A DNA stretch of 64,000 nucleotides from a candidate division CSSED10-310 bacterium (GTDB taxonomy: Bacteria > CSSED10-310 > JAFGJC01). The notes under the pieces were generated by a model. That model made no database searches. It had not been told where the DNA came from and saw only the letters and a program-made list of their open reading frames with translations. Below, piece by piece: positions 25,964 to 49,979 of the stretch. The position numbers and the translations under genes were made by a program. How positions within the stretch are numbered: position 1 is the first letter of the stretch; each line of letters starts with the position of its first letter. The stretch lies in NCBI GenBank assembly GCA_016927905.1, contig JAFGLW010000024.1:81950-145949 (forward strand), written 5' to 3'.

Positions 25964-28900
25964 ATGGAGTCTGACGTGCTGCCGGAAATACCACGGAAAA
26001 AAACAAACCGGAACTGGCTTCTTTTTCTCATCCTGATCGCCGGAACAACCTTTCGATTTTACGGAATCCGGTGGGGCATGCCAAGTTTTTTCCATCCGGA
26101 CGAACGGCAGATCATGTTCAAAGTCAACGATATATCCTGGAACGATCTTAATCCCCATTTCTTTGCCTATGGATCATTACCCATCTATGTGCTGAAAGGA
26201 ACCGTCACCGGCCTGGACCGCGTCAACCGGTTTGTTGTGGACGCAGCCAGGAAAATGGAACTGGACGCGAAGAAGGTCTCCCGGGTGAGGGAATGGTTTC
26301 CGCCAATGAATCATTTTCGGGGGCAGACCCTGACCGGGCGGGCCTTGTCCGCAATCGTATCAATCTGGACGATCGTTGTTCTTTTTTATCTGGGCAGGCT
26401 GATGTACCAGAAAAAAATCGCGCTGATTGCCGCAGCCCTGTTTTCGTTCAGCGTGTTGTCGATTCAGCAGTCTCATTTCTATGTCGTGGACGGTCCGCAG
26501 ACATTTCTGGTGGTCTGTGCAATCTATTTCATGGTCCGTATGGCCGTCGGGGACCGGGCAAGGGATTATTATTATTCTGGATTATTTATCGGTCTGGCGA
26601 TGTCCACAAAATTCAGCAGCCTGCCCATTTACATCGCGTATGCTTTCGCACACTTTCTGGCTTTGGTTCACGGGAACCGGAAAGGATTCACCCATTGGCT
26701 TCATCTTATCGGCGGCGCTCTCCTGTCGGTCGCGGTCATGACAGCCGGGATGCCTTACTGGATTCTGGATCACGAGAAATGGTGGCGGGACATACAGGAA
26801 CAATCGCGAATGGTCCGGGGAACGGCCCGGCTACCGTATACCATCCAATATGAAAATACTGCACCGTTCTGGTATCTGATTAAGAACATGGCCATTTGGT
26901 CTCTGGGTTTACCGTTCGGGATGGCGGCTTTCGCCGGTTTCGCCGTGGCCATACGCAGGTTTTTCGTTCAGACAAAAGATCTTGGCAATCAGGTCCTGCT
27001 TGCCTATGTGGTACCCATATTCATCGTCAACAGCCTGTTTCAGGTCAAGTTCCTCCGATATACACTGCCTTTGCTGCCGTTTTTTGCCCTGTTCGCCGCC
27101 AAAATGCTGTTCGATCTTCAGAAACGACACCGGATGCGCACACCGGCGAAGATACTCACCATCGTCGTACTGACCGGGACACTCATCTGGGCAATCGCAT
27201 ATACCACGGTATACCGGTATCCAAATACCCGGATCGAAGCTTCGAGCTGGGTTTATCAAAACATACCCTCCGGCGCACACATTCTTCTGGAAAGCAACTG
27301 GGACGACGCGCTCCCCGTGGGAACCCCCGATGGTAATCCCAGCGTATACACAACCAAAAAACTGGAGATTTACAGGGAACCGGAAAACGAGCGCAAGGCC
27401 GGGGAGATGGCGGAAATGCTGGAATGGGGGGATGTAATCATTCTGCCGTCCAAACGGCACTATGGGTCGGTTCTGAGGATTCCCGAACGGTTCCCGGTTT
27501 CGGGGAATTTTTACCGATCCCTGTTTGCTGAACGGCTGGGTTACCGGTATGTCAGGTGTTTCACTTCGCCGCCCCGACTGGGAAGGCTGAAATTCGAGGA
27601 CGACCTGGCGGACGAGAGTTTCCGGGTGTACGACCATCCCAAAGTGGCGATATTCCAGAAGGAAACCGCTCTGACCCGGGACCAGATCCTGCCGTATCTT
27701 CTGAATCCGCCTCCTGAAATCGCGGAAATAACTTACGAGGATATTCTCAGGGCTGTTCCTCCGGATGCAGTCGGCTCCAGAATTTCCTTCCCGGTTATCC
27801 GATGGCTGATCATCCTGGAAATCCTGGGTATCATGGTGTTTCCGACCGCTTTCCTGATTTTCCACCGGTTCAATCACCGGGGATATCCACTGAACAAAAC
27901 AATCGGCCTGATCACGGCGGGATATATCTGCTGGCTGATCCCCAGTCTGAAATGGGTGCCGTTCACCCGGACATTTCTGTTTCTGGTGATCGTTCTTTTC
28001 CTGGCGGCGAATTGCATGCTCTATATGCGGCACCGGCAGGCGATTCATCATTTCGTCAAGCAATATTGGTGGTCGATTGCAGGTTATGAGCTGCTTTTTG
28101 CGGCGGTGTTCGGGCTGTTTGTTTTTTTGAAAAGTTACAATCCCGATATATTCTGGAGCGAAAGTTCGATGGATTTCGGTTTCGTCAATTCCATCCTCAG
28201 ATCAGATTATTTTCCTCCGCATGATCCCTGGATAGAAGGCGAACCGATCAATTACTACTATTACGGGCATTATCTGGCCGCTTTCATGACGCGTCTGGCG
28301 GGAATCGAATCCAGCTACGGATACAACCTGTTCTTCGCCACAATCCCCGCCCTGGTGGCGCTGGCGGTAGCCTCCATACTCATCAGCCTGACCCGGCGCT
28401 TGTGGGCGGGTGTCCTGGGCGTCCTGTTCACCATAGTAATCGGCAATCTGGACGGCGTGGCTCAGATGGCCCAGATATGGAGCCGGATTCCCAAAACATC
28501 GGGCCTGTTCCCGGCTGCCGGGATATTCCGGGATTTTGTGGGCAGTTTCCTGGTTCTGGGTCGCTCGGAAGTGCATTTCAGGTTCTTCAGATCCGCCCAC
28601 GAGTTGATCCGGCCGACAGTTCATGAATTTCCATATTGGAGTTACAATTTCATGGACCTTCACGCCCACACAATCGCCACATTAATATCGTCTCTCGTCC
28701 TGGTATTCCACCTGGTGCTGTTCCGCAACCGGAAGAAGGGATTCGGTATTTTCGGCACCGGCATCACCCGGTACCTGACTCTGGGTGTCCTGTCCATCGC
28801 CCTGGGCGCTCTGATCCCCACCAACAGCTGGGATTTTCCCACACATTGCCTGGTCATATTCCTGATATTGAATTTCATGCCGCTCGAAAAACCGGCCGGT

Positions 28901-33767: not shown

Positions 33768-36701
33768 TCAACTCTCTGGTTCCGGCACGGTTGCGGCTGC
33801 CAGGAGTTCTTTTGGAACGATGTAGCTGTAAAAAATTACATCGTTGGCGTATGCCTTGTCCCGATACTCAGTGTAAATCCCGCCGGGATAAAATTCCTTG
33901 ACCCGCCCGAATAGCGGTTCATTCCGGATATCTTTTTCGAACAGGAAGGCCACCCCCTTGTCAGGCGGATGGCGGGCATTCAGAACGCGTTCCAGGTTGG
34001 CATGCAGCCGTTCCTTGGGTACGACATCGATCACTTCCCCGTCGGTTATGGTGAAAACATCCCCGGGTACCCGGTAACAGATGAACTTGGGAGTATCGAT
34101 GAAATGACCCTGCGATATATAAAGAGTATTTTTCGCAGCAAGCTCAAGACCCTGGTATCCCAGTAGGGTATGTTTTCTGGCATATCCGAACTGGGCGTAG
34201 TAGTCGGAGCCCAGTTTATAAAAATAATATTTGAATTCTGTTACACCGATCCAAGCGGTCAATGCGATGACAGCGGCCGCGGCACCCTTTTTCCCGACGG
34301 GGCCTTTCCAGTATCTGACAAGACTCAGAATGCCGGCTGCTGTAAACGCGCTGACCGGAATGGGAGTCATGATCGTCCGGGCTGCATCCGGTTCGGAAAG
34401 GATTCCGGGTAGAAGGCCGAAGGCGAACAGGGCCATGAGCAGAAACGGTCCGCGCTGCAATGCGTGCCGGACCATAATCAGCAGACCGATGAGCATCATC
34501 AGACCGAGCGGGTAAGTGACGATCGGCCATTCGTTGTTGAAGAAGTTACCGACATGGGCCTGATGGTGAAACATCAGCAGGTTTTCCCGGATATTCGTCC
34601 AGAGCGGGGTCAGCGATCCGGCCGTTCTGATTTTATTTCCGATGAACAGAAAATCGGATCGACCCATGAACGATGCTAAATTTCCCCGGTTTTCCAGGGC
34701 ATACCGGGCCAGAGGAGAAAAAGCGGCGGCACCTGCAGTCAGGTAAAAAATCAATCCCCACCAGTTCCGACGCATGAACCGTTTTTCCCTGATCCAGGTG
34801 TGAATGCCGACCAAAATCATCATAACGGGGATTCCCCGGAAAGCGAAATATGTATGCAAACCGAGTCCGATGAAAAATCCGGAAAGAATATAGTATGAAA
34901 GCCGTTTCCACCATCCGGAGGCATCCACTGCTTTGAAGAAAAGCCAGATCGTCAGTGCAAGGCACAAGGGGGCCAGGATGGCACGGTAGCCGGTCCTGGA
35001 AAACACGATATTCCAGGCCATGGCGGAGTAAATGAAAGCGGCCACGAACGCAAACCTGGTCCCGAACAGCTTCCGGAAAAGAAAGAACAATGCGATCACG
35101 GCGAGAATACCGGCGGTGATGCAGGGCAGGTACAATGACGCCTTGTCCACGCCGAACCATTTAAAGGACAGAGCGATGAGATAGAAATAGAAAGTGCATT
35201 TCCCCCAGGCCTCAGGCGTGAACGGCGTATAGGGTTCACCGTCCAGAATCCGCAGAGCGTACATTCCATTCCAGGCTGCATCGTTGTTGATGCCCCAGGG
35301 GATGTCATCCAGTCGGTAAATTCTGAGCAATACCGTCAGTACTGTCAGGATAAAAAGCAGTCCCCATGAATACGATCGACGCAGTTCCGGTCGATCCTGG
35401 AAAGTGGTCAGTCGGACGGATTTGGGTAATTCCTGGATCCAGGCGAAGGCCAGCCCGGCGGCGATCAGCCAGAATCCCTGTCTGATTCTGCCGTCGGAAA
35501 GCGCATTGACAGCGGTGATGACGCAGATCACGAAGCAGATATACAGGGTTGCCAAAAGCAGCCTTTGCCGCCTCAGAACCTGCAGCGCTCTGTCCCAGTT
35601 GCTTTCCGGCATGATCCGAACAACCGGTGTTACCGGAACCGGCCCTTTTTTCCGCAGGATGCGCTGAACAATCCAGACAACGACGATCAGGGCGGCTGTC
35701 AGGTCCAGAAGGATGCGCAGAATGGAGATCAACTCGGAATGGATATCCGGTTTGCCCGCAGTCGGGGATTGAAGTGACGAAGGTGGTGTGTATTTGACGA
35801 TCCGGTTGTTCTGGGAATCGCTTATATAGATCAGTCCGGCCCGGTCGACAGCGATACCGGTGGGATGGGACAGTTGTTCCGGACCGCTGCCGGATTCGCC
35901 GAACCGGCTGAAAAGTGTTCCGTCTTGATTGAACACGACGACGCAGTCATCATGCGGAACGGTACAGTAAATCCTGTGATCGGGTCCCACAGCCAGATAG
36001 GCTTCGTTGAATTTTCCATTGTCCCAGTCCGGAACGGGGATCACGGATAGAGTCTGTCCGGCGGGATTCAATATTCTGATTCGATGGTTTCCGGTATCCG
36101 CCACAACCAGGTTACCGTCCGGTGCCGTGGCAAGTCCCAGCGGATCACGCATCTGATCCAGGGCATCTCCCTTGCCACCCCAGGTGGCGAGATGTTTTCC
36201 ATCCCGTCTGAATACCTCGATCTTATGCAGGCTGGTATTGGCTACATACAACCGGTTCTGTCTGTCGACGGTCAAACCCCGGGGTGCATAGAAATCGGAT
36301 TGTTCCGTCCAGTTGGGATTCCAGTCTGAATCCGGTGGTTTGACCTGGATCCGATGATTCCATGTATCGGCCACATACAGAACACCGAGTGGATCCATGA
36401 CGGCTTGTGTCGGATCGTTGAACTGACCCGGTTCAGAACCTTGAGCGCCCCACTGCCGGATGAAGGCACCATTGGTCTCCAGCAGCTGGATCCGGTAGTT
36501 TCGGAAATCCGCTACCAGAAGGTGATCATCCGGAGTCAAGGTTAAGCCACGTGGTTCAATGAATTCTCCGGGCCCGGCACCCCGGCTGCCGATCTGCTGG
36601 AGCTGCCGGTTGGCGACTTTGGGAGCGGGGACTTCGCCGCACGATTCCAGGCTCAGGGCGGTCAGAATTATCGCGGCGGTTTTTAAACTCATTTGCAGCA
36701 T
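33768..36701 (-). CDS. N-terminal NHL propeller fused to PMT-type membrane glycosyltransferase
   Basis: I prefer ATG at 36701; the track start at 36725 is a TTG inside the GT2 gene. A short hydrophobic signal (TAAIILTALSLESCGE) could be a secretion signal or imperfect lipobox. Residues about 31-305 are a six-bladed NHL propeller, with EPRGLTLTPDDHLLVADFRN as blade 1, FYAPRGLTVD as blade 3 and VPDWDNGKFNEAYLAVG as blade 5. Membrane helices begin near residue 325, and a PMT_2 domain follows with motif DDIPWGINNDAAWNG near 470. The domain order is the reverse of the other three fusions, yet the propeller would again lie outside the cytoplasm. The C-terminal 200 residues are soluble. It is flanked by the GT2 and GT-C genes of the same operon. 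Confidence 0.87.
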   Translation of the reverse strand: MLQMSLKTAAIILTALSLESCGEVPAPKVANRQLQQIGSRGAGPGEFIEPRGLTLTPDDHLLVADFRNYRIQLLETNGAFIRQWGAQGSEPGQFNDPTQAVMDPLGVLYVADTWNHRIQVKPPDSDWNPNWTEQSDFYAPRGLTVDRQNRLYVANTSLHKIEVFRRDGKHLATWGGKGDALDQMRDPLGLATAPDGNLVVADTGNHRIRILNPAGQTLSVIPVPDWDNGKFNEAYLAVGPDHRIYCTVPHDDCVVVFNQDGTLFSRFGESGSGPEQLSHPTGIAVDRAGLIYISDSQNNRIVKYTPPSSLQSPTAGKPDIHSELISILRILLDLTAALIVVVWIVQRILRKKGPVPVTPVVRIMPESNWDRALQVLRRQRLLLATLYICFVICVITAVNALSDGRIRQGFWLIAAGLAFAWIQELPKSVRLTTFQDRPELRRSYSWGLLFILTVLTVLLRIYRLDDIPWGINNDAAWNGMYALRILDGEPYTPFTPEAWGKCTFYFYLIALSFKWFGVDKASLYLPCITAGILAVIALFFLFRKLFGTRFAFVAAFIYSAMAWNIVFSRTGYRAILAPLCLALTIWLFFKAVDASGWWKRLSYYILSGFFIGLGLHTYFAFRGIPVMMILVGIHTWIREKRFMRRNWWGLIFYLTAGAAAFSPLARYALENRGNLASFMGRSDFLFIGNKIRTAGSLTPLWTNIRENLLMFHHQAHVGNFFNNEWPIVTYPLGLMMLIGLLIMVRHALQRGPFLLMALFAFGLLPGILSEPDAARTIMTPIPVSAFTAAGILSLVRYWKGPVGKKGAAAAVIALTAWIGVTEFKYYFYKLGSDYYAQFGYARKHTLLGYQGLELAAKNTLYISQGHFIDTPKFICYRVPGDVFTITDGEVIDVVPKERLHANLERVLNARHPPDKGVAFLFEKDIRNEPLFGRVKEFYPGGIYTEYRDKAYANDVIFYSYIVPKELLAAATVPEPES

Positions 36702-36711
36702 GCCGATCTCA

Positions 36712-37656
36712 TCAATGATCTTCAAACCGGTCGATATTATCCAGGATTTCTTCGTTCAATCTGCGGTTGACTGCGATCAGATCGGCGATGACGCCGATCA
36801 GAACAAGGAAAAAACCGGTCAGAATGCACACCGCGGAAACAACCACCGATTGAACCTTGCCGGATGGATTCGGCCAGCTGCTCAGGTAATAGTAAATGAA
36901 TCTGAAGAACAAAACAGCTCCAAGACCCAGAAAGAAATATCCACTCCGGGCGAACAGCTTGACCGGGCTGTACAATGCCCAGATCCGGATCATGGTGGCG
37001 GTCTGCCGGCGGATGTAATACCAGTTGCTTCGAAATAACCGGCTTTTCCTGGCAGGCGGGTTGATCTGCACCGGAACCGATACGATCCGAAAACCACTCT
37101 GGCTTGCCTGAATCAGAGTTTCGACCGTGTAGGTGAATTCCGAAAACACCCGAAGCCGTCTGGCTGCATGATAGGAGTAGGCTCTGAAACCGGATGTAAC
37201 ATCCGGGATGTTCAATCCGGTCAGGAACCGGACCATGCGGCTGCCCGTTTTCTGGAGCAGCTTTTTTGTCGGGGAAAAGTGGGGAATGGCGTCGATCGGC
37301 CGGCTCCCGACAACAAGATCAGCCCTGTTGTGCAAAACAGGCCCGATAAGGTCGGCGATACAGGCGGCGTCATATTGATTGTCGGCGTCTGTATTCACCA
37401 CGATATCGGCATTTGAACGAACCGCGTATTTCAGGCCGGCTGAGAATGCTTTTGCCAGACCCTGGTGAACAGGCAGCTCAAGAACATGGTGCACATTCAA
37501 CGATCGGGCGATATCCGCAGTGCCGTCCGTGGATCCGTCATCGATGACCAGCAGTTCGATGGAATCAACGCCTTCGATGGAATCGGGAAGCGCTCGGATG
37601 GTTTCGGGAAGCGTTTCGGCTTCATTGAAACACGGGATTTGAATGATCAGCTTCAT
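36712..37656 (-). CDS. GT2 polyprenyl-phosphate sugar synthase-like enzyme with two TM helices
   Basis: The start is taken at MKLIIQIPCFNEAETL (37656); the extra N-terminal residues of the track ORF look spurious. The catalytic GT-A domain shows VIDDGSTDGTADIA and the metal-binding VVNTDADNQYDA. Acceptor-loop residues are in TSGFRAYSYHAAR. Two C-terminal hydrophobic helices (FFLGLGAVLFFRFIYYYL and the segment near ILTGFFLVLIGVIADLI) resemble GtrB and DPM-type synthases, which load a hexose onto undecaprenyl or dolichyl phosphate. It would supply the donor used by the adjacent GT-C enzymes. First gene of its operon. Confidence 0.88.
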   Translation of the reverse strand: MKLIIQIPCFNEAETLPETIRALPDSIEGVDSIELLVIDDGSTDGTADIARSLNVHHVLELPVHQGLAKAFSAGLKYAVRSNADIVVNTDADNQYDAACIADLIGPVLHNRADLVVGSRPIDAIPHFSPTKKLLQKTGSRMVRFLTGLNIPDVTSGFRAYSYHAARRLRVFSEFTYTVETLIQASQSGFRIVSVPVQINPPARKSRLFRSNWYYIRRQTATMIRIWALYSPVKLFARSGYFFLGLGAVLFFRFIYYYLSSWPNPSGKVQSVVVSAVCILTGFFLVLIGVIADLIAVNRRLNEEILDNIDRFEDH

Positions 37657-37818: not shown

Positions 37819-39264
37819 ATGCCAAAGAAGCCGTCACGTCTGGCATTGCAACATATCATCCGACTCAGGATGTCGGCTTTGTATATCGCCATTCTGTTCA
37901 TTTTGGGATGTGGATTATCGCCTTCAAATGAAACCGGAACACTCCCGGCAAACCAATCCGCCCGGAACAGGTCGTCTGCAGGGCAGCCTGTGAATCTGGT
38001 GATTTTCACTCTGGATACCACCCGCGCCGATCATCTGGGATCGGGCGGTTACGAACGTATCCTGACACCGAATCTGGACCGGTTGGCCCGCGGGGGAATA
38101 CAATATATCAACGCTTATGCCCAGGCTCCCCGCACGGTGGAATCCCATGCTTCCATATTTACCGGAATTTATCCGTTCATTCATCAGGCAGCGAACGCCT
38201 CGGGAAGAGGTAAATTCCCGATGAGCGATCGGTTCGAGACCCTTGCTGAAATCATGCGGGAAAACGGGTACCAGACTGCGGCATTCACAACCAGTGTCAT
38301 GGTCCGGGCGCGGGACAGCGGCTTGGAGCAGGGATTTGAGACCTATTCGGATTATGATCAGGGGGAATTGAAGGCCGACCGGAACAACCAGCGGTTTTTC
38401 AGGTGGTTCGAGCAAAAAGCCGTGCAGCCGTTCTTTGTGTGGATCCATTATTATGATCCCCATATCCCGTATGCAGCTCCCGCGCCGTTCGACTCGTTGT
38501 ATGAGCCGGTTACCGGTCATCACACCTATAAAAAGATCGTTCGCAAACAGGGTTTGACGAATCTGGAAAATTACACGGTCGGTGAAGGTATCAGCCGGTA
38601 TGATGAAGAAATCACCTTCATGGATCATCATTTCGGGAAGATAATTGAGTTCCTGAACCGGAAAGGACTGCTTGATTCAACCGTTCTCGTTACCATTGCG
38701 GATCATGGTGAAAGCCTTTCCGAACACAACTCGTTCTTCAGCCACGGATACGATATTTTCGAACCCGCGGTTCGAATACCCTGCATGATTCTGGATCCCG
38801 GTTCGGATCGGGGGGGCATGATTGTCAATGCTCTGGTCGAAAGCGTGGATGTGTTTCCGACGATCATGAATCGGTTCGGATTGCGTCATTCTAATCCCAT
38901 TCAAGGAAGGAATCTCACCGGTTATTTCGATTCGGATACGGCGGTTTCCAGAGACAGGGTTTTCAGTCAGAGAAATGCGGATTCACCCAGGATTCTGCAG
39001 TTCGGAGTGCGGGATCGGCGATGGACCTATATAACCGGCAAGGATACACCCCGCATGGCTTATGTGTTTGACAGAGATATCGATCCGGGGGAGATCCGGA
39101 ACCGGGGGACCCATCCTCCCGCTGATTTCGATCGGGATCTATTTCATGAATTCCTTATGGATCAGCTGGGTGCGAAGGACGAATATCCGGCTGCAACTCC
39201 CATCAGCCTTCCTCTGGATTCCAGACTGGCGGAACAGCTGGAAGTACTGGGATACATGCACTGA
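37819..39264 (+). CDS. Sulfatase-fold lipoprotein, likely phospho/sulfo-transferase or hydrolase
   Basis: The 481-residue protein has a lipobox-like LFILGC near residue 31 and an alkaline-phosphatase-superfamily domain. Metal ligands are seen in FTLDTTRADHLGSGGY and ADHGESLSEHN, and the His in FFSHGYDIFEPAVRIP. Where sulfatases have CxPSR for formylglycine, this one reads TVESHASIFTG, so Thr replaces Cys. Thr nucleophiles occur in LtaS- and EptA-type phosphoglycol transferases of the same fold. Therefore it should not be called a sulfatase without testing. GGAAGGA precedes the ATG. It stands alone on the + strand between two minus-strand glycan operons. Confidence 0.8.
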   Translation: MPKKPSRLALQHIIRLRMSALYIAILFILGCGLSPSNETGTLPANQSARNRSSAGQPVNLVIFTLDTTRADHLGSGGYERILTPNLDRLARGGIQYINAYAQAPRTVESHASIFTGIYPFIHQAANASGRGKFPMSDRFETLAEIMRENGYQTAAFTTSVMVRARDSGLEQGFETYSDYDQGELKADRNNQRFFRWFEQKAVQPFFVWIHYYDPHIPYAAPAPFDSLYEPVTGHHTYKKIVRKQGLTNLENYTVGEGISRYDEEITFMDHHFGKIIEFLNRKGLLDSTVLVTIADHGESLSEHNSFFSHGYDIFEPAVRIPCMILDPGSDRGGMIVNALVESVDVFPTIMNRFGLRHSNPIQGRNLTGYFDSDTAVSRDRVFSQRNADSPRILQFGVRDRRWTYITGKDTPRMAYVFDRDIDPGEIRNRGTHPPADFDRDLFHEFLMDQLGAKDEYPAATPISLPLDSRLAEQLEVLGYMH

Positions 39265-39305: not shown

Positions 39306-40079
39306 TCAGTACCTTGAAAATCGAATCCTGAACAGATCCCGAAGCATGCGCGGAACCTGACTTCGCAGGCGGATGGTGGAGGATCGAAGCTGGGGATGCA
39401 TCCGGACCGGAACTTCGACGAACTTCAGATGCAGACGGCGGGCGATATGAAGCACCTCCACATCGAAGGCGAATCCGGTGCAGGTCACTTTCGGAAATAT
39501 ACCATCCACGGCCTTGCGGTTGAAGAATTTCAATCCACACTGGGAATCGGAACCGGTTTTCAATCCGAGCATTGCCACAATCCACTGGAATACCCGTGAT
39601 GAATATTCCCGCGATCGTGGGTAAGCGCTCCGGGCAGAGGTGAGGCGTCGCGTTCCCAGTGCAATATCCGCATCACCGCGGAGCAGCGGGATTACCAGCG
39701 CATTGTACTGGTCGGGACTGTAGGCCAGGTCCGCATCGGTGAATCCGGTGATATCTCCACGGGCGTCACGCATTCCACGGCATACGCTGAATCCCTTTCC
39801 ATGGTTTCCATCGTTTTTCAAAAGCCTTATCCGCTCCTCTCGACGCGACCATTCGGAGACCACTCCGGCGGTTCCATCCGTGCTGCCGTCATCCACTACA
39901 ACAATCTCCAGCAAACCAGCACCGGGTGCTACATTCCAGGCAGTCAGCCTTTCGAGAGTTGCGGGAAGCGTCGATTCCTCGTTGTATGCGGGAATTACAA
40001 GGGTTATGCTCGAACCGGACCGGGTGAAATCGCCGGGGACGTTAAGCGATGCTGCAGTCATGTCCGGAATGTCTTTCAT
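39306..40079 (-). CDS. GT2 Alg5-like polyprenyl-phosphate sugar synthase
   Basis: The 257-residue protein resembles dolichyl-phosphate beta-glucosyltransferase (Alg5). It shows LVIPAYNEESTLPATLERL, EIVVVDDGSTDGT, GNHGKGFSVCRGMRDARGDI and the metal motif GFTDADLAYSPDQ. SDSQCGLKFFNRKAVDGIF is the conserved acceptor region. It has no C-terminal membrane helices, unlike the enzyme at 36712. It is the last gene of the operon that starts with the NHL-sulfatase protein, three bases after the GT-C gene, and may load the sugar those membrane enzymes use. Start could also be at 40061. Confidence 0.88.
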   Translation of the reverse strand: MKDIPDMTAASLNVPGDFTRSGSSITLVIPAYNEESTLPATLERLTAWNVAPGAGLLEIVVVDDGSTDGTAGVVSEWSRREERIRLLKNDGNHGKGFSVCRGMRDARGDITGFTDADLAYSPDQYNALVIPLLRGDADIALGTRRLTSARSAYPRSREYSSRVFQWIVAMLGLKTGSDSQCGLKFFNRKAVDGIFPKVTCTGFAFDVEVLHIARRLHLKFVEVPVRMHPQLRSSTIRLRSQVPRMLRDLFRIRFSRY

Positions 40080-40082
40080 AAA

Positions 40083-42284
40083 TCAAGCGCCGGATCCGCT
40101 GCCGGTTCGATATCCGGGAGGATATGGCTGGTTTTTGAGATCCAAGATCGGTTTTCCGTCCGGATCGTGGATTCCGACCGCCACGTACCAGTCACCCACC
40201 GTTTCGCAGCTCCTGAGAAACAGTTCGTTCCATCCGGTCCGGAACAGTACATTCAGAACTCTGGGGGATTCAAAAAGCGTCGTCATGTCCATTACCACAC
40301 GGCCGTTCAGCCACATCATGGCTTTGTCCCGGGACCCCGAAACCTCCAAAACCGCATGCGTATCCTCAGGAAAATAAAGATACGTCGCGCCCTCGGCACA
40401 GCATCTTTCCGGGTTCCTGGGGTATTTCGGATGATCGTGTTTGAAGATGGTCTGTAAATCCAGCGTGGCCGAATTGTTTTTTCTGGACGTCCATTTGAGG
40501 TTGGGTTTCAAACCGGGCCGCCGCGAGCTTTCCTCTGAAAAGGGTTCGATATATTCGGTGTCGAATTCCTGATTGCGATCGTAATCGAACAATCCCAATA
40601 AGGACCAGTTGTTCAGAAATGTCTTCCAGCTCCTGACATCCACGACCAGGAAATTTGTCTTGCCGCTGGGATCGATCACCTCATGCAGAATCTCGTATTC
40701 TGCAAAATAATGGATCTCATCGTCCCGCAAAGCATACAGAGTGGGCCGGCTGAGATTGAACCGTTGGTATCCCTCGGGTTTCCCGATCATGTACCCGTTA
40801 TTATGGGATTTTGACCAGACGGTGGGATCAAGACGGGTATAGAAATTGACGAAAATCTGGGGTTGATTTACGGATGTCGCCGTCAGAATCCGCTGTGGAT
40901 ATTGGTCTTTCCGGGATTCCATGAATTCGATCATCTCACGGTACCCATATTGAAATCCGTATATTCCCCGGGCGGACATGATGGGATAGCGGTTGAAATA
41001 GAGTGTGAAATAACGCATCGCTTCGTTCGCGAAAAAAAACGCGATCGTGACGCTCACAACCACCTGTACACCGGCGGATAACCATCGCACCCGGATCCGG
41101 CTCACAGCGTCCTGAATCCATGTTATGGTGAACGCGCTGAGAATCGGTGCAAGCGGGCTCCCGATGATCGATCGGGTGGCATAAAGCTGATTCGTAAACG
41201 CAGCTGCGACGGGAAATAAAAATATCCACGCCAGGATCAGAAAATGCAGCCGTCCCGGCACCATGCAGATCAGAAACACACCCGCCAGGGTCAGCGGGAG
41301 AAAGGTTTTGTATAATTCGCCGTGATTGGCGATGGAATGACGTGCGTTTCGATCACCATTTTCAAACAGGAAATCATACGAATAAAATCTCTGATAATTG
41401 GACCAGAATCGCTCCGCCTTGGCGGTCAGGGAAGTGTATTTCGATTCGTTCAGCCAGCTGTTCGATTTGAAATGCGATGTGGTTTTCAACTCCATCCTGA
41501 ATTTGACGGCCGGAGTGGCGATCAGTGCAAACAGGATCACACCGGGCAGGACATACACCCACTGGCGAATCAGATTGGGAAGGAAGATGATGAAGACGCA
41601 AATCAGAAATAACGGCATGAAAATGACCGCCATTACATAAGTATGAACGGTCAATCCGAACATCAGGCCCGCGCCCGCCCAGTTCCATCCGCCTTTCCTC
41701 AGGGCTCGGACCAGAAATGCAAAACCGAAGACGAACATGCACGGCCAGGAAATCAACTCGAATGCGATTCTGCTGAAATGGAAATTCCAGGGCGTAATGG
41801 ATAAGAACAACGCCGCCCAGAGACCGGCATATATTCCCCATAATTCATATACCAGCCAGAAGGTTCCCAATACCGTCAATGTTCCGAAAACAACACTGGT
41901 CAGGCGAACATTGGCCTCGGTCGGACCCAGCAGCCTGACCGGCAGGATTGCTGCATAGATATAGACGGGATTCTTGTGACCGCCGAACGAATTGATGTAA
42001 AGCGGGAAGGATTTCCCGTTTTCATCGATTCCCCAGCCTCCCAGAGCAAATGCATTGTACCCGATGGAAGCTTCGTCGCAAAAGAAACCGGCAGGGATAT
42101 CACCCACCCTGTAAACCCGGATGAAAAAAGCGAATGCGAGTATCAGGGCAAGCAATACCCGATCCTGCCAGATGAACTTTCGTCTTCCGCAAAATGACGC
42201 TGCGGTGTATCTGCCGTTTTCGGATCGCGTTGATTTCTCAGTCATCTTCAGGCTGTCTTTCACCGGATCAGATGCCCGGTTCAT
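40083..42284 (-). CDS. PMT-like membrane glycosyltransferase with C-terminal beta-sandwich domain
   Basis: The protein (733 residues from ATG 42284; other possible starts are 42356 and 42245) has about ten membrane helices and the acidic motif AGFFCDEASIGYNAF, typical of PMT_2/ArnT-like GT-C enzymes. SFGGHKNPVYIYAA resembles the family's HxP loop. The C-terminal 150 residues form a beta-rich domain (ATYLYFPEDTHAVLEVSG, then a Trp-rich WNELFLRSCETVGDWYVAVG), similar in pattern to galactose-binding-like sandwiches. It probably transfers a lipid-linked sugar outside the membrane. It lies 87 bases after the NHL-sulfatase gene and 3 bases before the Alg5-like gene. Confidence 0.82.
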   Translation of the reverse strand: MNRASDPVKDSLKMTEKSTRSENGRYTAASFCGRRKFIWQDRVLLALILAFAFFIRVYRVGDIPAGFFCDEASIGYNAFALGGWGIDENGKSFPLYINSFGGHKNPVYIYAAILPVRLLGPTEANVRLTSVVFGTLTVLGTFWLVYELWGIYAGLWAALFLSITPWNFHFSRIAFELISWPCMFVFGFAFLVRALRKGGWNWAGAGLMFGLTVHTYVMAVIFMPLFLICVFIIFLPNLIRQWVYVLPGVILFALIATPAVKFRMELKTTSHFKSNSWLNESKYTSLTAKAERFWSNYQRFYSYDFLFENGDRNARHSIANHGELYKTFLPLTLAGVFLICMVPGRLHFLILAWIFLFPVAAAFTNQLYATRSIIGSPLAPILSAFTITWIQDAVSRIRVRWLSAGVQVVVSVTIAFFFANEAMRYFTLYFNRYPIMSARGIYGFQYGYREMIEFMESRKDQYPQRILTATSVNQPQIFVNFYTRLDPTVWSKSHNNGYMIGKPEGYQRFNLSRPTLYALRDDEIHYFAEYEILHEVIDPSGKTNFLVVDVRSWKTFLNNWSLLGLFDYDRNQEFDTEYIEPFSEESSRRPGLKPNLKWTSRKNNSATLDLQTIFKHDHPKYPRNPERCCAEGATYLYFPEDTHAVLEVSGSRDKAMMWLNGRVVMDMTTLFESPRVLNVLFRTGWNELFLRSCETVGDWYVAVGIHDPDGKPILDLKNQPYPPGYRTGSGSGA

Positions 42285-42371
42285 TTTCCCGCATATTCTA
42301 GCTTCCGAAGACTTTTTTTCAATCTTCGAAATGAAATGGAATCGCGAATGAATCAAGGGTAAACGCAGTTT

Positions 42372-45371
42372 CTAATCGGGAGCGGATATCGTATCGATTT
42401 CAAACGATAGAATCCGGTCATTCCGGCAATCTACGACGGCCAGCTTCCGCGTTTCAGGGTCGTAATCGATGCCCATCGGGTATGAAAACGGCGATTCGGT
42501 CGTCGAACCGGGTGGCGGGAACTGGGATATCATGTCTCCCGTCTGCGGGTCGAACACCAGTATCCGGTGAGCCGGCGGATCCGTCACGTAAAGATTGTTG
42601 AATTCATCCAGACAGAGATACGGCAGATTGAAAGGATGATCCTCCCATCCCTCGATCGAGATCAATCGCTCAACTTTTCCGTCCGGATCCAATATTTGTA
42701 CCCGCCTGTTATCGCGGTCGGCAACAATCAGATTTCCCTTGGTATCGATTGTTATCCCGACCGGTTTTTTGAACTGACCGGGTGCCGATCCCCTGCTCCC
42801 CAGAACCGATAAGACCTTACCCTGCAGGTCGATTTTCACGATCTGGTCATGACCGTAATCGGAAACCCACAAACCTTCGGGTGCCGGGCAAAGATCACGT
42901 GGATAATCAAAAAGATATGGGGTCATCGGCATGAATTCCCCCAGACTGGTGAATTTCTGCACCCGGTGGTTGAATGTATCCGCAATAAATACAAATCCGT
43001 CATCCGTAAACAACACGCCGCAGGGATCGTTCAGTCTTCCCGGCAGGTTCCCCTTCGATCCGAACGCCCGGATGAAACGGTCATTCCGGTCGAAAATAAC
43101 GACCCGGTAATTCCTGAAATCGGCAACAGCATACATGCCTTCCGGGCCGAAATCTACGTCTCGGGGCTCGTTCAACGCAACCTGTGCCATTTCATACGCA
43201 CCGACCGCGGGCCCGGAAGTGGTATTTTGTGGTTCCGGCTCATCGTCTTCGGTTTGTGGTGCCGTTGTGGACCTGGCGGTACCACCACCCTTCACAGGGG
43301 GAATCTCAAAATATGTCCCGTAAGCTTCCGCCAGCATCTTGCGCATGTGTTCAGCCAGAGGAAGATACAGATCCACAATGTTGTTTTTTTCCAGAGGATC
43401 GGTATCGATATTGAACAACTCATAGGTGTTCACCTGCTGGGTGTAAATCAGTTTCCAGGGACCGTAGATCACCCCGTATTTCCGGTATTGACGATTGGGT
43501 ACAAGTGTGAATACCGGGCCCAGATCCTCCGTTCTCCCGTTGTAAATCAACGGCAGAAGATTGGTGCCATCCAGGCGCGATTGAGATTGAATATCCAGGA
43601 ACGCCAGAAGAGTGGGCACGATATCCACGGACCCGACAGGGACCTTCACACGCCGGCCTTTCAATTTCGGGAAATTGATTATCAGAGGTGTGTGGATCGA
43701 TTCGTTATACAGATGCTTACCGTGAAAACTGTCCCCGTGATCGGAGAATTCCTCCCCGTGATCCGCAGTGATCACAACCAAGGTCCTGCGGATCAGGCCG
43801 GATTCCTCCAAAAAGTCAAGCAGCGGTTTGAGGTGTTTGTCTGTGAATGCAATCTCCCCATCATAAAACGCCGTTTTCAAATCCTTGAACCGCTCCGTTT
43901 CAGCATGCGGTAGATAGGCTTCATGCGGATCGAGAAGATGGGAATAGAGAAAAAACTTCTCATCGCTAATTTCCCTGAGAATCCGGATGATGGCATCAAC
44001 GGTTTCCGGAGTTGTGGGAGTTCCCCAGATTTCCCCGTAATCCCTGTCGAACAGATGCATGATGTCATAATTTTTTCTGAATGGGTGTTCTCTGAACAAG
44101 GTGTCGTATCCGACGAAGGCCGTTCGATACCCATGTTCTTTCAATATGTCTTTCAACAGCATGGTGCGTTCGGGAATGAAATGCCGGGGATATATACCGG
44201 ACAGGAACGAATTGATGGAACGCGGTGAATCACCGCCCTGTATGAAATTGCGTTCGAATAACACTCCCTGTTCGGCGAAGGCATCCAGGTTCCGACTGGT
44301 CGGATGGGGATACCCGTATGTGGACAGGTGATCCGCACGTACGGCATCGATCGACAGAAACAGGATATTCCAGTCCGATGTGTCCCCGATGATTTCACGG
44401 ACCGGTCTGCCGTCGTAAGGGTAATCCTGGATCGAATCCGCCAGATAACGCCTAAAATCGAAGACGCCCCGCTGCAGAGGTATCTTGACCAGCGACGGCA
44501 GCCGGTTGACCGGCAGGATCCTTCCCGCGGATCTAAGTGTCGAAGCAGTGATATACGTGTGTTTGTGAATCTGGACCGGCAGATTGTAACTGTAATTCAC
44601 CGTCAGAAGGCTCACGGCGGCCAGGAAAACGGCTGTCCAGATCAACAGCCGCGCCGCCGGCTGCTTTCCCAGGAATCTGTTGACCCCCAGAAACGGTTTC
44701 CGGGTGAACAGATAGATTAAAAGGATGAAAATGACAAATTCGCCCAGTGCTTCCAGATTCAGGACCAGGCTCAACCAGCGGTAGTTTGCATGCACGAGAA
44801 TGAGAATGAAAATACCGGAAATCAAATAAGGATTCGTTATATAATCACTCAGCCGTTTTGCCGGGGATTGCAGGGTTCCGCTTTCCGGGCGCATCGCCGA
44901 AGCCCGGGAAACGTTCGCGGTAATCCAGGCCACCAGAAGAAACAGGCAGGCCAGAACAATGAACTGGATGGCGGCAATCGAGAAAGCGATCATGGCATGG
45001 TTGTGAAACCGGTCGATGAACAGCTTGATCAGGCGGTAATCGGCGAACGTAAACACCCATAACAACAGGAAGATCGGGAAATGGGGAATATGTCTCCAGC
45101 CGAGATCGGCGTCAGGAAACAGATGGTTTCGAATCCGCCTGTGGACCTGGGCGGATAAACGGAATACCAGGTAGGCTGAAATCGATAGCAGAGCCGCCAT
45201 GCCCCAGATTATCACATGGAACAGAACGCGTTCGGTACCGTTGTTCAAAGACGGATTGCCGGAGATCAGAACAGCGATGGTCTCGATGACGGCAACGGTA
45301 AATCCGGATAACACGAACAAACCCGCTACCGGAAGGCTGAAAGAATTTTGATTCTTGACCGGGACCGTCAT
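42372..45371 (-). CDS. Polytopic sulfatase-fold enzyme fused to C-terminal NHL propeller
   Basis: ATG 45371 follows AGGGAG at nine bases. The 999-residue protein has about six membrane helices (residues 10-280), then an alkaline-phosphatase-superfamily domain at about 330-690: LFLSIDAVRADHLSTYGY, ADHGEEFSDHGDSFHG and IHTPLIINFP. The nucleophile region is GGDSPRSINSFLSG, which has Ser rather than the CxPSR of sulfatases. A Thr/Pro-rich linker near 700 leads to a six-bladed NHL propeller (725-999) with blade 1 EPRDVDFGPEG, blade 3 LFDYPRDLCPA and blade 5 IEGWEDHPFNLPYLCLD. Overall layout resembles LtaS or OpgB phosphotransferases with an added propeller. It heads the operon with the PMT-like and Alg5-like genes. 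Confidence 0.87.
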   Translation of the reverse strand: MTVPVKNQNSFSLPVAGLFVLSGFTVAVIETIAVLISGNPSLNNGTERVLFHVIIWGMAALLSISAYLVFRLSAQVHRRIRNHLFPDADLGWRHIPHFPIFLLLWVFTFADYRLIKLFIDRFHNHAMIAFSIAAIQFIVLACLFLLVAWITANVSRASAMRPESGTLQSPAKRLSDYITNPYLISGIFILILVHANYRWLSLVLNLEALGEFVIFILLIYLFTRKPFLGVNRFLGKQPAARLLIWTAVFLAAVSLLTVNYSYNLPVQIHKHTYITASTLRSAGRILPVNRLPSLVKIPLQRGVFDFRRYLADSIQDYPYDGRPVREIIGDTSDWNILFLSIDAVRADHLSTYGYPHPTSRNLDAFAEQGVLFERNFIQGGDSPRSINSFLSGIYPRHFIPERTMLLKDILKEHGYRTAFVGYDTLFREHPFRKNYDIMHLFDRDYGEIWGTPTTPETVDAIIRILREISDEKFFLYSHLLDPHEAYLPHAETERFKDLKTAFYDGEIAFTDKHLKPLLDFLEESGLIRRTLVVITADHGEEFSDHGDSFHGKHLYNESIHTPLIINFPKLKGRRVKVPVGSVDIVPTLLAFLDIQSQSRLDGTNLLPLIYNGRTEDLGPVFTLVPNRQYRKYGVIYGPWKLIYTQQVNTYELFNIDTDPLEKNNIVDLYLPLAEHMRKMLAEAYGTYFEIPPVKGGGTARSTTAPQTEDDEPEPQNTTSGPAVGAYEMAQVALNEPRDVDFGPEGMYAVADFRNYRVVIFDRNDRFIRAFGSKGNLPGRLNDPCGVLFTDDGFVFIADTFNHRVQKFTSLGEFMPMTPYLFDYPRDLCPAPEGLWVSDYGHDQIVKIDLQGKVLSVLGSRGSAPGQFKKPVGITIDTKGNLIVADRDNRRVQILDPDGKVERLISIEGWEDHPFNLPYLCLDEFNNLYVTDPPAHRILVFDPQTGDMISQFPPPGSTTESPFSYPMGIDYDPETRKLAVVDCRNDRILSFEIDTISAPD

Positions 45372-45442
45372 ATGATCAGGACTCCCTGGGATCAAACTCG
45401 AATTAAAACACCGAGCATGCTGAAAATCAAATGGGGTTCAGG

Positions 45443-46912
45443 ATGGATAAGAGCGATCACCAGTTTCGAAAAATATTTCACGGTTTTCTGTCATTGTCAG
45501 TAGCCAAAATCGTTTTTATGATTGCAGGGTACGCGGTGTATTTCTCCCTGCCCAGGCTGTTCGGATCGGCCGGGGAGTTTGGGAATTACGGCGTGGTGAT
45601 CGGCCTTCTGAATGTATTCAACATGGTGCTGATTACCGGAACCATCCAGGCCGTTTCCAAATTCACATCCGAAAAAAACGAAATTGCCCGCTCAATCCGC
45701 CGTGCGGCCCTGCGGATCCAGTCGGTGATCGGCGGAATGATCTTTCTTTTCCTGCTGCTCGGCGCTCCCCGGATCGCACTCCTGTTCGGCGACCCGGATC
45801 TCACCGCACCGATCCGGGCGGGATCGTTCATCCCCTTGTTTTACTCGTTTTATGCCGTGTTTGTCGGATCCCTGAACGGGCGGAGAATGTTCACCCAACA
45901 GGCCGCCCTAGATATTTCCTTTGCCTTTTTGAAGACGGCGGGAATCCTGACCATGGCCGCATTGGGATTCGGTGTAACCGGTGCGCTTTCCGGGTTTTCG
46001 TCTGCAGCGCTGATCATTTTAATCGTTGCAGGACTGGTTGTGTCCGGGGAATCTCCGCGTTCCGATCGGGTTCGCTTTCCCGCCGATCGGATATTTGCGT
46101 TTGAAATATGGGTCATATTCATCACATTGACCACAAACCTGCTGATCAACGCCGACCTGTTTTTCGTAAAATCCCTTCTGGATCCCTCGGTTGCTTCAAC
46201 ATACACCGGTTATTACACTGCGGTGCAGACATTCGCCCGGATTCCGTACACTCTGGTCATTGCGATCAGCCTGATCGTATATCCTCTGATTTCCCGATCG
46301 ACATTCCAGAACGATTTGAAACAATCACAGTCCTATGTCCGGAATTCCATCAGACTGGCTCTGCTGATCGTTGTTCCGATCGCAGCCGTATTTTTTTGCT
46401 TCCCATCCGAATTTCTGGGATCAGTTTACCCCGACGAATATATCGCAGGCAGCTCGGTTCTCCGGATGCTCCCCATCGGCTCGATTCTTCTCTCAATCAT
46501 GTATGTCATGATTACCATGATAACCGGAAGCGGATTCCCGAGGATTTCACTGGCCATCACCTGCGTTGCATTGGCTGCGGACGCGGCTGCCTGCTGGTTT
46601 TTGGTACCCGTATATTCTATCCGCGGCGCTGCAGCAGGATCGATAACGGGATGGGGCACCGGAACACTCCTGGCGGGGATCTGGATCTGCCGTCATTTCA
46701 GGATGGTCACCCTGTCGAAAACGCCCGTCCGAATCATATCGGCGGGCATACTGGGTTCCGTGGCCGGGTGGTTTGTTCCGGGCGGCGGATGGATTCGACT
46801 TCTGACGGGATCTTCAACCGTGCTGGCCGTTTACGGTATCGTGTTGTGGGGTTTGGGAGAAATCAACCGGGTGGAGCTGATCGGGATGTATCGGAAATTC
46901 AGGACCTCCTGA
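45443..46912 (+). CDS. Wzx/MurJ-like polysaccharide flippase
   Basis: The 489-residue protein (ATG 45443 preceded by ggggttcagg) has about 13-14 membrane helices with the MOP/MATE exporter pattern: an N-terminal SLSVAKIVFMIAGYAVYF and charged loops between helices, such as SEKNEIARSIRRAALR. It probably flips a lipid-linked glycan to the outer face of the membrane. Functionally it links the cytoplasmic GT2/GT4 enzymes to the GT-C enzymes outside. It diverges from the NHL-sulfatase gene and overlaps the end of the methyltransferase gene by 14 bases. Confidence 0.85.
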   Translation: MDKSDHQFRKIFHGFLSLSVAKIVFMIAGYAVYFSLPRLFGSAGEFGNYGVVIGLLNVFNMVLITGTIQAVSKFTSEKNEIARSIRRAALRIQSVIGGMIFLFLLLGAPRIALLFGDPDLTAPIRAGSFIPLFYSFYAVFVGSLNGRRMFTQQAALDISFAFLKTAGILTMAALGFGVTGALSGFSSAALIILIVAGLVVSGESPRSDRVRFPADRIFAFEIWVIFITLTTNLLINADLFFVKSLLDPSVASTYTGYYTAVQTFARIPYTLVIAISLIVYPLISRSTFQNDLKQSQSYVRNSIRLALLIVVPIAAVFFCFPSEFLGSVYPDEYIAGSSVLRMLPIGSILLSIMYVMITMITGSGFPRISLAITCVALAADAAACWFLVPVYSIRGAAAGSITGWGTGTLLAGIWICRHFRMVTLSKTPVRIISAGILGSVAGWFVPGGGWIRLLTGSSTVLAVYGIVLWGLGEINRVELIGMYRKFRTS

Positions 46913-47636
46913 GCGTTGAATCAGATGCCGGGATTTTCCGAAGTATTACAACGACGAAACCGGCCCATCGAGATACGGGTGAATTCAGAGCTTTGTTTTC
47001 CAGATACCTGAAAACCGACCGGATAACGGGAATCCGGTGAATGCAGGCGAACGGAGTGAAAACACGGACACCTCGAAATGCAACCCATTCAACATTGTCG
47101 GGAAAATATGTCCGGATCCGGTCCAGAGAATCGTATCGGGTGGCGATATCGGCATCCCGGTATTCTGTGGAGGTCCGGGTGGGCATTTTCAACCGCTTGA
47201 TGATTCCCCGCAGCGACCGGGGATTGTAAAATTCGAGAGCCAGAAAACCACCCGGTCGGGTCACCCGGACCAACTCGGAGATCACCGGTTGAATGGGATG
47301 GATATGCGGCAGTACTTTGAACGATAAAGTCAGATCGAAACGATCTGCAGCAAAGGGCAGGCATACGAGGTCGGACTGGATCAGGTTTCGATGCCTCTGG
47401 GAAGCCCGTTTCAACATGCCCATGGACAGGTCCACCCCGACACTCATACGGGCCGGTTCGGCCAGTCGCTCCAGGATCAGACCACTGCCGCATCCCACTT
47501 CCAGAACGGTTGATCCCGGATATAAAGTTTCAATCGATTTAATTTCCAGATCGTCGATCAGGGCGTGATAACCACGCTTCCGGCTTCGATCGTAGGATTG
47601 GGCAAAGGCATCGTAATATTTACGGTTGTCGATCAT
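46899..47636 (-). CDS. SAM-dependent methyltransferase
   Basis: The 245-residue protein begins with YYDAFAQSYDRSR, typical of UbiE-like or glycan-modifying methyltransferases. Motif I is VLEVGCGSGLILERL, followed by VDLSMGMLKRA. Post-I ELVRVTRPGGFLALEFY is well formed. The start overlaps the stop of the GT4 gene (ATGA), so it is the fourth and last member of the GT2-GT4-GT4-MT operon. A role in methylating a sugar of the growing glycan or the carrier is plausible but inferred. Confidence 0.83.
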   Translation of the reverse strand: MIDNRKYYDAFAQSYDRSRKRGYHALIDDLEIKSIETLYPGSTVLEVGCGSGLILERLAEPARMSVGVDLSMGMLKRASQRHRNLIQSDLVCLPFAADRFDLTLSFKVLPHIHPIQPVISELVRVTRPGGFLALEFYNPRSLRGIIKRLKMPTRTSTEYRDADIATRYDSLDRIRTYFPDNVEWVAFRGVRVFTPFACIHRIPVIRSVFRYLENKALNSPVSRWAGFVVVILRKIPASDSTLRRS

Positions 47637-48796
47637 CGCGTCCGCTCCAGAATCCGGTCATACAGGATTTCATATTGCCGAGCCATTCTTTCGGCTCCAA
47701 ACCGCCGCCGGGCGGAAAGCGCGGCATTCAGGCCGATGGTCCTGCGCAGCTCCACTTTCTCGATCAACTCGCTCAGAATCCGGATACAGGCTTCAATGTC
47801 TCCCGGCGGGAAGATCAGACCCGCTTGATCCGTCACCAGCTCCCGCAACGGCGGCAGATCGCTCAATACAACAGGTATCCCGGCAGCCATGGATTCCAGT
47901 AACACCAGGGGCAGGTCCATTTTGCCGTACAGCGACAAAACAGGGAATACGACCAGGTCGACGGCACGGAGCAGCCGATTCATGTCTGTGACTTCGCCGA
48001 TGAAATTCACCCGGCTGTTCAATCCGGATACCGCCTTTTTGATCGCCGTCTCCGCCGCGGTATCGGCATCCGTTTTGATTCTGGACGCGATGATGAACGC
48101 GATGCGGGGATGATTTCCGTCCAGCCATTTTATGATCTCCATCAATAAACGGGTCGATCCGGAATAAGTCAAATCACCGGGATACAAAATAGCGAACCGA
48201 TCCCGGGTTCCAAATTCATCCCGGCACTCGCTCTGGTAGGTTTCATCTTCTTTACCGGGAATCCGGATACCGGGATGGATTGCCTTCACATCTCGCCCGG
48301 TCAGTTTTTCGATCTTGTGACGCGTGTGTTCCGATACCGTCACAACCGTATCGGTAAACAACAGGCTTCGCAGGTGCCGCTCATCGGTGGGTTCGCTGGT
48401 CACCGTTTGCATGGAATGCGAACGGTTTTTGAACGCCATAATCATCCGTCCCGTCATGGAGGATTTTCGATTCGGCGTGAAGAAAAAATGATACAGCGAC
48501 GATGGGGGATTTTTCCGGAAAAGAGCTCGAATCAGCCGGATCTGATTGCCCAGGCTGGGACTGAATCTTCCGGAATCGATATATACCGGTTCCGCTGAAG
48601 CATTGGGAAGTTGCCCGGCATATCCCCGAACGACGAATGTCCGATACCGGTACCGCTCGGAATTTTCAACTAGGTTGCGCGGAAGAATCTTGCCACTGTC
48701 ATTCCAGGGTGGATTCAGCGGTTTCGTTACCAGGCAGATCCTGTCTGAATCTGGCAGGAAATTCACCGGTCCGGTCTCATCATCGGTTCTCCTCAT
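47633..48796 (-). CDS. GT4-type glycosyltransferase
   Basis: Starting at ATG 48796 inside the end of the upstream gene gives 387 residues, a usual GT4 length; the track start at 48895 only adds sequence antisense to nothing recognisable. The C-terminal domain shows FAILYPGDLTYSGSTRL, the loop SLYGKMDLPLVLLESMAAGI with the catalytic Glu, and PVVLSDLPPLREL. It would use a nucleotide-sugar donor in the cytoplasm. Both neighbours overlap it: 17 bases with the GT4 upstream and 4 with the methyltransferase downstream. Confidence 0.86.
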   Translation of the reverse strand: MRRTDDETGPVNFLPDSDRICLVTKPLNPPWNDSGKILPRNLVENSERYRYRTFVVRGYAGQLPNASAEPVYIDSGRFSPSLGNQIRLIRALFRKNPPSSLYHFFFTPNRKSSMTGRMIMAFKNRSHSMQTVTSEPTDERHLRSLLFTDTVVTVSEHTRHKIEKLTGRDVKAIHPGIRIPGKEDETYQSECRDEFGTRDRFAILYPGDLTYSGSTRLLMEIIKWLDGNHPRIAFIIASRIKTDADTAAETAIKKAVSGLNSRVNFIGEVTDMNRLLRAVDLVVFPVLSLYGKMDLPLVLLESMAAGIPVVLSDLPPLRELVTDQAGLIFPPGDIEACIRILSELIEKVELRRTIGLNAALSARRRFGAERMARQYEILYDRILERTR

Positions 48797-49979
48797 ACAC
48801 CATGCGTACCAGTTCGCGATACTGCCTGCCCATTCGCGTCCAGGTATAATTTCCGGAACTTGCCAGGGCGTTTTGCGACAACCGCCTGCAATCACCCGGA
48901 TTGTCGCGCAGGTACCGGATAACCTGTCGAAGAGCGGTGATGTCGGCGGCAGGGAAAATCATACCATTTTGAAGGTTCCGAATCACATCGACCATGCCAC
49001 CGCTCGTGGACACGACCACCGGAATTCCCCATCCCAACGCTTCCAAAAGCGTGTTTGGAAGTCCTTCCTGCTTTCGAGATTCAGATATGATGGATGGGAA
49101 AACCGCGATATGACAGGTCGATAACAGGTCGTTTTTCTTTCGGTCGTTTATCCAGCCATGAAAAAACGTGCGGATTTTCAGCGTTTCAGCTTGCTTTTTC
49201 AGCCTGGATAACTCAGGCCCGTCCCCTGCCACATGAAGTTCCAGATTATCCAGCCCGGTCAACGCCTCGATCAGGCAGTGAACACCCTTCAATCGGATCA
49301 GTCTTCCCAGATACAGAACCCGGAAAACAGGCGAATCTGCGGGCTGATCCCAGACGGAATGCCGTCCGGGATCGGGATGAAACCCCATGGGAAGAACCGA
49401 TACGGGCGGGGCGATAATCCGGGTTTCATGACCATTCCACATTTTTTGCAGCACCTCTTTCTGATAACAGGCCACCGTGACGATCCGATCGGTTCCGGAA
49501 GCAATCGTCCGGGCAAGGTATCGACCGCCGGGCAGAACATTCAAAAGATGCACATCGCTGCCGTGAGCGATGCTGATGTGGGGGATTTTCGTATTCCGTC
49601 TGAATCTTTGACCAACCAGCCCGCAGGGGAGAAGCCAGTTGGTTAAAAGCACCGAATGGGAATCAATGCGGTGCCGGACCGATCGGATCATGGACATGAA
49701 AAAAGGTATGACGAGTCCAAGCAGCATGGGATTTCGAACGATATTATCCGGAATTCCGTTTCCATAAGCCAGATTCTGGAGCAAGGGGGGATAAAAATAT
49801 CGGAATCGGACATGCCCGTTCGGTAACGGGCGGTAGTGGGATTCACTGAATTGGGGGGAAATGACGCATACATCGTGTTCTTTTCTCAGTTCATCCACGA
49901 GACCGAGGAGAAACCTTCCGGCGTGATCGCCCTCCCATCGGGGATATGAGGAAGTCAGAAATAAAATGGAAATTTTCAT
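48780..49979 (-). CDS. GT4 glycosyltransferase
   Basis: The 399-residue protein opens with ILFLTSSYPRWEGDHAGRF, a frequent start of GT4 enzymes. The donor site includes VLYLGRLIRLKGVHCLIEAL and SESRKQEGLPNTLLEALGWG, with the Glu of the EX7E motif, followed by PVVVSTSGGMVDVI. It is probably a cytoplasmic nucleotide-sugar-dependent step. Its start abuts the upstream GT2 stop with no gap, and its 3' end overlaps the next GT4 gene. Confidence 0.88.
   Translation of the reverse strand: MKISILFLTSSYPRWEGDHAGRFLLGLVDELRKEHDVCVISPQFSESHYRPLPNGHVRFRYFYPPLLQNLAYGNGIPDNIVRNPMLLGLVIPFFMSMIRSVRHRIDSHSVLLTNWLLPCGLVGQRFRRNTKIPHISIAHGSDVHLLNVLPGGRYLARTIASGTDRIVTVACYQKEVLQKMWNGHETRIIAPPVSVLPMGFHPDPGRHSVWDQPADSPVFRVLYLGRLIRLKGVHCLIEALTGLDNLELHVAGDGPELSRLKKQAETLKIRTFFHGWINDRKKNDLLSTCHIAVFPSIISESRKQEGLPNTLLEALGWGIPVVVSTSGGMVDVIRNLQNGMIFPAADITALRQVIRYLRDNPGDCRRLSQNALASSGNYTWTRMGRQYRELVRMVYEENR

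Follow-up and report, generated by a model that had tools for sequence, protein, structure and literature searches.

Genes of the locus

The window, by which we mean the whole 64,000-nucleotide stretch of DNA analysed here, carries a glycan locus in which a membrane enzyme of the alkaline-phosphatase (AP) superfamily is fused to an NHL propeller (Table 1). We call this protein the AP enzyme and number its residues with the TTG at 45395 as residue 1; a plausible ribosome-binding sequence, GGGAG, lies ten bases upstream of the ATG at 45371. Its gene and the GT-C gene that follows it probably form one operon. On the other side, the order and orientation of the GT1, methyltransferase, Wzx and AP genes are identical in G004, our label for the CSSED10-310 MAG Zod_Metabat.479, whose contig JAFGMN010000340.1 holds the sole clear ortholog of the AP enzyme. 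The G004 protein is missing its C terminus, and the NHL-bearing G004 contigs were checked for that end; a convergent NHL fragment was rejected as the missing part, since its best match (47%) is the GT-C–NHL protein of G002, a genome of the same order.

Other membrane proteins of the locus include one of the Agl23 type, and in Haloarcula Agl23 has been reported to translocate lipid-linked glycans (PMC11182771). The Agl23–NHL open reading frame of the window overlaps, at 19518-20402, an opposite-strand folate dehydrogenase/cyclohydrolase gene (19458-20402), and its true start is probably near 20.6 kb, because homologs align from about residue 380-400. A SulP-type sulfate permease with a STAS domain is encoded at 62112-63800, some 17 kb away from the AP gene.

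Table 1. Genes of the glycan locus and parts of the AP enzyme, in window positions
Feature	Positions	Strand	Remarks
TIGR03663 (Agl23) membrane protein, C-terminal NHL	19518..23531	+	start probably about 1.1 kb further in
DUF2298/TIGR03662 membrane protein	23609..25960	+	profile match
PMT-DUF2298-NHL fusion	25964..31294	+	of the NHLs compared, the one nearest to that of the AP enzyme
NHL-GT-C fusion	33768..36725	-	profile match
Second sulfatase-fold protein, Thr-type (RTVESHASIFTG)	37819..39264	+	N-terminal lipobox-like signal
GT2, AglJ-like (polyprenyl-phosphate-sugar synthase type)	39306..40079	-	sub-threshold match
GT-C (PMT_2) glycosyltransferase	40083..42356	-	starts 15 bases past the AP-NHL stop; ortholog in G002
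AP-superfamily/NHL membrane enzyme	42372..45371	-	999 aa counted from the ATG, 1007 aa with the TTG at 45395 as start
NHL six-bladed propeller	42387..43193	-	residues about 735-1003; Pfam, Foldseek, AlphaFold2
AP-superfamily (sulfatase-fold) catalytic domain	43326..44369	-	residues about 343-690; PF00884, AlphaFold2, Foldseek
H558, active-site histidine	43722..43724	-	31/32 in alignment
D545-H546, predicted metal ligands	43758..43763	-	32/32 in alignment
S390, predicted catalytic nucleophile	44226..44228	-	codon TCA; alignment, profile, helix start in model
D350, predicted metal ligand after first strand	44346..44348	-	32/32 in alignment
Membrane domain, seven predicted helices	44589..45326	-	residues 24-269; N-in, C-out, positive-inside rule
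Wzx-type polysaccharide flippase	45431..46912	+	divergent neighbour of the AP gene; adjoins it in G004 too
Methyltransferase	46899..47636	-	synteny kept in G004
GT1-type glycosyltransferase	47633..48895	-	synteny kept in G004

Architecture and fold of the AP enzyme

The initial annotation had read the protein as membrane helices, an AP-superfamily domain and an NHL cassette, and each of these parts is borne out. The Pfam match to PF00884 (Sulfatase) covers residues 343-601 (5e-37, 128 bits against a curated cutoff of 25), and the domain-only AlphaFold2 model (pLDDT 85.6, pTM 0.89) is predicted to have the alkaline-phosphatase fold, with query-normalised Foldseek TM scores of 0.71-0.82 against S1 sulfatases. 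A linker separates this domain from the NHL repeats (1.8e-20 in Pfam), which form a predicted six-bladed propeller that Foldseek matches to NHL propellers. In the full-length model the block pLDDT of the propeller is mostly about 84-96, with brief dips to about 68, and the membrane part is poor (block pLDDT about 61 or less); the domain-only run was used for the enzyme domain. At the N-terminal end, six helices pass a fixed hydropathy cutoff and seven are counted with bounds set by hand. With seven helices, positive charge falls on alternating loops, and the predicted topology has the N terminus inside and the enzyme domain outside.

Active site and nucleophile

The active-site stretch, SPRSINSFLSG, spans residues 390-400, and the claim that a Ser occupies the nucleophile position stands. 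In a profile alignment S390 shares its column with the catalytic position (the formylglycine residue) of the solved sulfatases 7oz8 and 5g2v, and a helix begins at S390 in the domain-only model, as the superfamily expects. These comparisons, a profile alignment to solved sulfatases together with Foldseek, were used in place of superposition on LtaS and EptA, and, as far as alignment and predicted fold go, they do provide the protein with a residue able to act as nucleophile. The predicted active site around it is intact: D350, R353, H491, Y511, E514, D519, D545 and H546 are invariant across 32 aligned domains, and the AP enzyme keeps D350, R353, H491, D545, H546 and H558. One could imagine that the protein has no catalytic role and serves as a sensor or scaffold, its NHL and membrane parts doing the work, since about 20 relatives in the genome would allow one of them to have lost activity and the NHL region suggests docking; with those six residues in place and a hydroxyl nucleophile retained in both orthologs, we regard this as very unlikely. 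The AP/NHL protein is a genuine and well-formed enzyme in which the nucleophile has been exchanged conservatively.

How conservative becomes clear from the 32-row domain alignment, where the nucleophile column holds Ser in the AP enzyme and its G004 ortholog and Thr in the other 30 rows, among them the second sulfatase-fold protein of the window. From the alignment, the AP enzyme is best seen as a Thr-type PF00884 member in which Ser has replaced Thr, which is a modest surprise. The initial annotation had called the stretch unusual, correctly in that it holds no CxPSR-type motif, but a Thr-to-Ser exchange in a Thr-type family is less odd than was claimed. The Ser codon is TCA in the AP enzyme and AGT in the G004 ortholog, and one base change cannot interconvert these; the use of different Ser codon boxes in two orthologs fits selection to retain the hydroxyl and is no proof of it. 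The idea that Ser is unique to this pair was dropped, as two viral-contig homologs share it: distant AP-domain homologs on IMG/VR contigs (L047 2950-4125 and L053 2953-4098, with SDPNYLS) also have Ser at the nucleophile position.

The C/S-x-P/A-x-R motif is absent from the AP enzyme (SPRSI), from the G004 ortholog (SIFSL) and from the 18 own-genome paralogs outside the window. The AP enzyme should thus have no formylglycine, and a hidden formylglycine motif, which would have told against the original reading, was rejected. A true sulfatase, in which a formylglycine derived from Ser390 serves to hydrolyse sulfate esters, would fit the fold and the S1 sulfatases that are its best structural matches, and some anaerobes can mature Ser to formylglycine. 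With the motif missing in both orthologs and in every own-genome paralog examined, it is nevertheless an extremely improbable explanation. We therefore agree with the earlier judgement that classical sulfate hydrolysis is unlikely, on the grounds of the Ser nucleophile, the missing formylglycine motif, the membrane anchor and the glycan-assembly setting.

Relatives and rarity

The AP enzyme is 24-46% identical to Thr-type proteins described as 'sulfatase-like hydrolase/transferase', with which it shares the domain, the metal ligands, the histidines and a nucleophile at a helix start. It differs from them in having Ser for Thr, a C-terminal NHL region and a seven-helix membrane domain that occurs in two MAGs only among those searched. 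Indeed, the motif QGGDSxxSxNSxxSG was found in the window genome and G004 only (290 genomes), as were relatives of the membrane domain (193 genomes). G002, which is about 90% complete, has no match to either, yet holds the core of the glycan locus. A pattern scan of viral contigs for further homologs returned almost nothing, and none of the haloarchaeal plasmid relatives sits in an Agl-type glycosylation cluster. Within its own genome, the 18 sulfatase-fold paralogs (loci L023-L039) are without a formylglycine motif, though FGE-type (PF03781) domains exist.

What the AP enzyme may do

We think that the AP enzyme probably adds a charged group to a surface glycan, or removes one, and that it is not a classical sulfatase. 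Phospho-group transfer is the best single reading: it accords with an intact metal site, a hydroxyl nucleophile and a membrane-anchored domain predicted to lie outside, and a gene for phosphatidylethanolamine synthesis is present; the window genome encodes a phosphatidylserine decarboxylase, so phosphatidylethanolamine is likely to be available. Our leading proposal, to which we give slightly less than an even chance, is that the AP enzyme is a membrane-anchored, metal-dependent phospho-group transferase of the Thr-type PF00884 branch, with a Ser nucleophile, that acts on an extracytoplasmic polyprenol-linked glycan. The metal would be held by D350, D545 and H546, and Ser390 would attack the phosphorus of a membrane donor, be it phosphatidylethanolamine, phosphatidylglycerol or another lipid-linked phosphodiester. 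A phospho-X-serine intermediate would then form on Ser390, and the group would be passed from there to a hydroxyl of the polyprenol-linked or nascent glycan outside the membrane, while the NHL propeller may serve to dock the enzyme on the glycan or on the NHL-bearing Agl23/DUF2298/GT-C machinery nearby.

The setting of Wzx, GT-C, AglJ-like GT2, Agl23 and DUF2298 genes speaks for transfer. The initial annotation had preferred a phosphoglycol or phosphoethanolamine transferase-like role on the glycan, and the glycan-assembly setting and the membrane anchor are in keeping with it. The choice of phosphoethanolamine or phosphoglycol as the group is weakened in that, by sequence and by Foldseek, LtaS and EptA lie further from the AP domain than S1 sulfatases and phosphonate monoester hydrolases do, and Pfam gives no region of the EptA, LtaS or BcsG type. 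It also counts against transfer that no proven phospho-group transferase family covers the AP enzyme, and that its first metal ligand is Asp, as against Glu in EptA.

The known systems are instructive here. S1 formylglycine sulfatases and phosphonate monoester hydrolases provide the closest solved folds and the best sequence matches, but the AP enzyme is without their formylglycine motif. Its seven-helix anchor with an outside domain resembles the membrane-anchored transferases, which have five helices. EptA/MCR and LtaS share with it a membrane-anchored, extracytoplasmic AP-superfamily domain, a hydroxyl nucleophile and a D-H metal pair, and differ in their Thr nucleophile, their Glu first ligand and their five helices; sequence matches to them are weak. 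There is no Pfam or NCBIfam match to the EptA/MCR family, for which Ser390 and Asp350 stand where Thr and Glu are called for, and the LtaS profile gives 24 bits against a cutoff of 970. BcsG, the cellulose phosphoethanolamine transferase, is a membrane-anchored AP-superfamily protein with a Ser nucleophile (Ser278; PMC11379886, PMC10525099) that acts on an exopolysaccharide, and the first three of these features recur in the predicted AP enzyme. BcsG differs in having five helices, a Cys243/Glu442/His443 metal site and a family of its own, and neither Pfam nor NCBIfam gives a BcsG model that matches the AP enzyme at E 0.001. BcsG is thus the nearest working analogy; that the AP enzyme works like BcsG is possible by this comparison, and that it is BcsG is not supported. 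Ser variants also occur in YejM (PMC7576196).

The same active site would serve in a phosphodiesterase or phosphatase, in which the phospho group taken up by Ser390 is released by water, for instance to trim lipid-linked glycan intermediates or to recycle polyprenyl phosphate. Phosphonate monoester hydrolases are among the sequence matches of the AP domain, YejM has phosphatase activity, and the domains of EptA and LtaS in soluble form act as hydrolases (PMC7576196). However, the seven-helix anchor and the operon position ahead of GT-C and GT2 genes fit biosynthetic transfer equally or better, and such an anchor is missing in most Thr-type paralogs, so that we consider a hydrolase unlikely, if a serious contender.

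A third option, beside the transfer role named at the outset, is sulfo-transfer, in which an enzyme of sulfatase fold moves a sulfo group onto a glycan sugar. In Halobacterium, Agl30 and Agl31, AP-fold proteins of the N-glycosylation cluster, behave as sulfotransferases and are required for N-glycan sulfation (PMC11980604), and Agl30 of Halobacterium salinarum (VNG1056C) is, like the AP enzyme, a membrane protein in a glycosylation cluster. The locus has Agl23-type and DUF2298 genes, and the PAPS-synthesis genes of the genome, which make sulfate transfer possible and count against phospho-group transfer, are clustered with five AP-fold proteins, one of which (L026) is loosely near the AP enzyme in the tree. 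This analogy, with the PAPS/AP-fold cluster, means that the option deserves weight. Nonetheless, the likeness to Agl30 and Agl31 is one of fold and gene setting, and Agl31 (VNG1057C) is cytosolic; a domain predicted to lie outside would require an extracytoplasmic sulfo donor, which is a difficulty for a PAPS user, and no PAPS-synthesis gene was seen within the window, the cluster being on another contig. On balance, a sulfotransferase seems rather unlikely.

That cluster is of some interest in itself. The PAPS-linked run (L076 3236-15397, G000:C28:169235-181396), all on one strand, comprises four PF01663 phosphodiesterase-type proteins, a 1074 aa LPG_synthase_TM-Sulfatase fusion with a homolog in G002 (L040), a PHP protein and two enzymes, ATP sulfurylase and APS kinase, whose genes are scattered among those of the five AP-fold proteins. 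The run is a candidate for harbouring AP-fold proteins that handle PAPS or use it.

The NHL propellers and their meaning

The genome, 3.1 Mb in size, has 17 NHL matches, and all of them lie in four proteins of the glycan locus, at about 22.7-43.0 kb of the window; in these (Agl23-like, DUF2298, GT-C and the AP enzyme) the NHL is joined to a membrane or enzyme part that differs from one protein to the next. Identity between the NHL region of the AP enzyme and those of the proteins at 25964-31294 and 33768-36725 is 37.5% and 34%, respectively, and the region belongs to a locus-wide type. NHL-bearing Agl23 or DUF2298 proteins are also present in other genomes of the phylum. The G002 locus encodes an extra GT-C protein with a C-terminal NHL (L065 13286-16378) that was not seen in the window and whose ortholog is represented in G004 by its end.

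Local duplication could explain the clustering, which alone is no proof of docking. A more speculative idea, which we would hold rather doubtfully, is that the propellers are the common docking part of a membrane glycan-assembly complex of Agl23-type, DUF2298 and GT-C proteins, with the Ser-type AP enzyme as the subunit that decorates the polyprenol-linked glycan, outside the cell membrane, with a phospho or sulfo group. The Ser nucleophile by itself is a small change with precedents, and the architecture could matter more: one NHL type on four different proteins, in one locus of a little-known phylum, with three of the four bearers homologous to GT-C enzymes or to parts of archaeal-type glycosylation. 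Should the propellers indeed dock these proteins together, they would offer a handle on the organisation of the poorly understood DUF2298 and Agl23 proteins. The AP enzyme could also help to decide which reactions belong to the Thr/Ser branch of PF00884, a large one that is for the most part uncharacterised.
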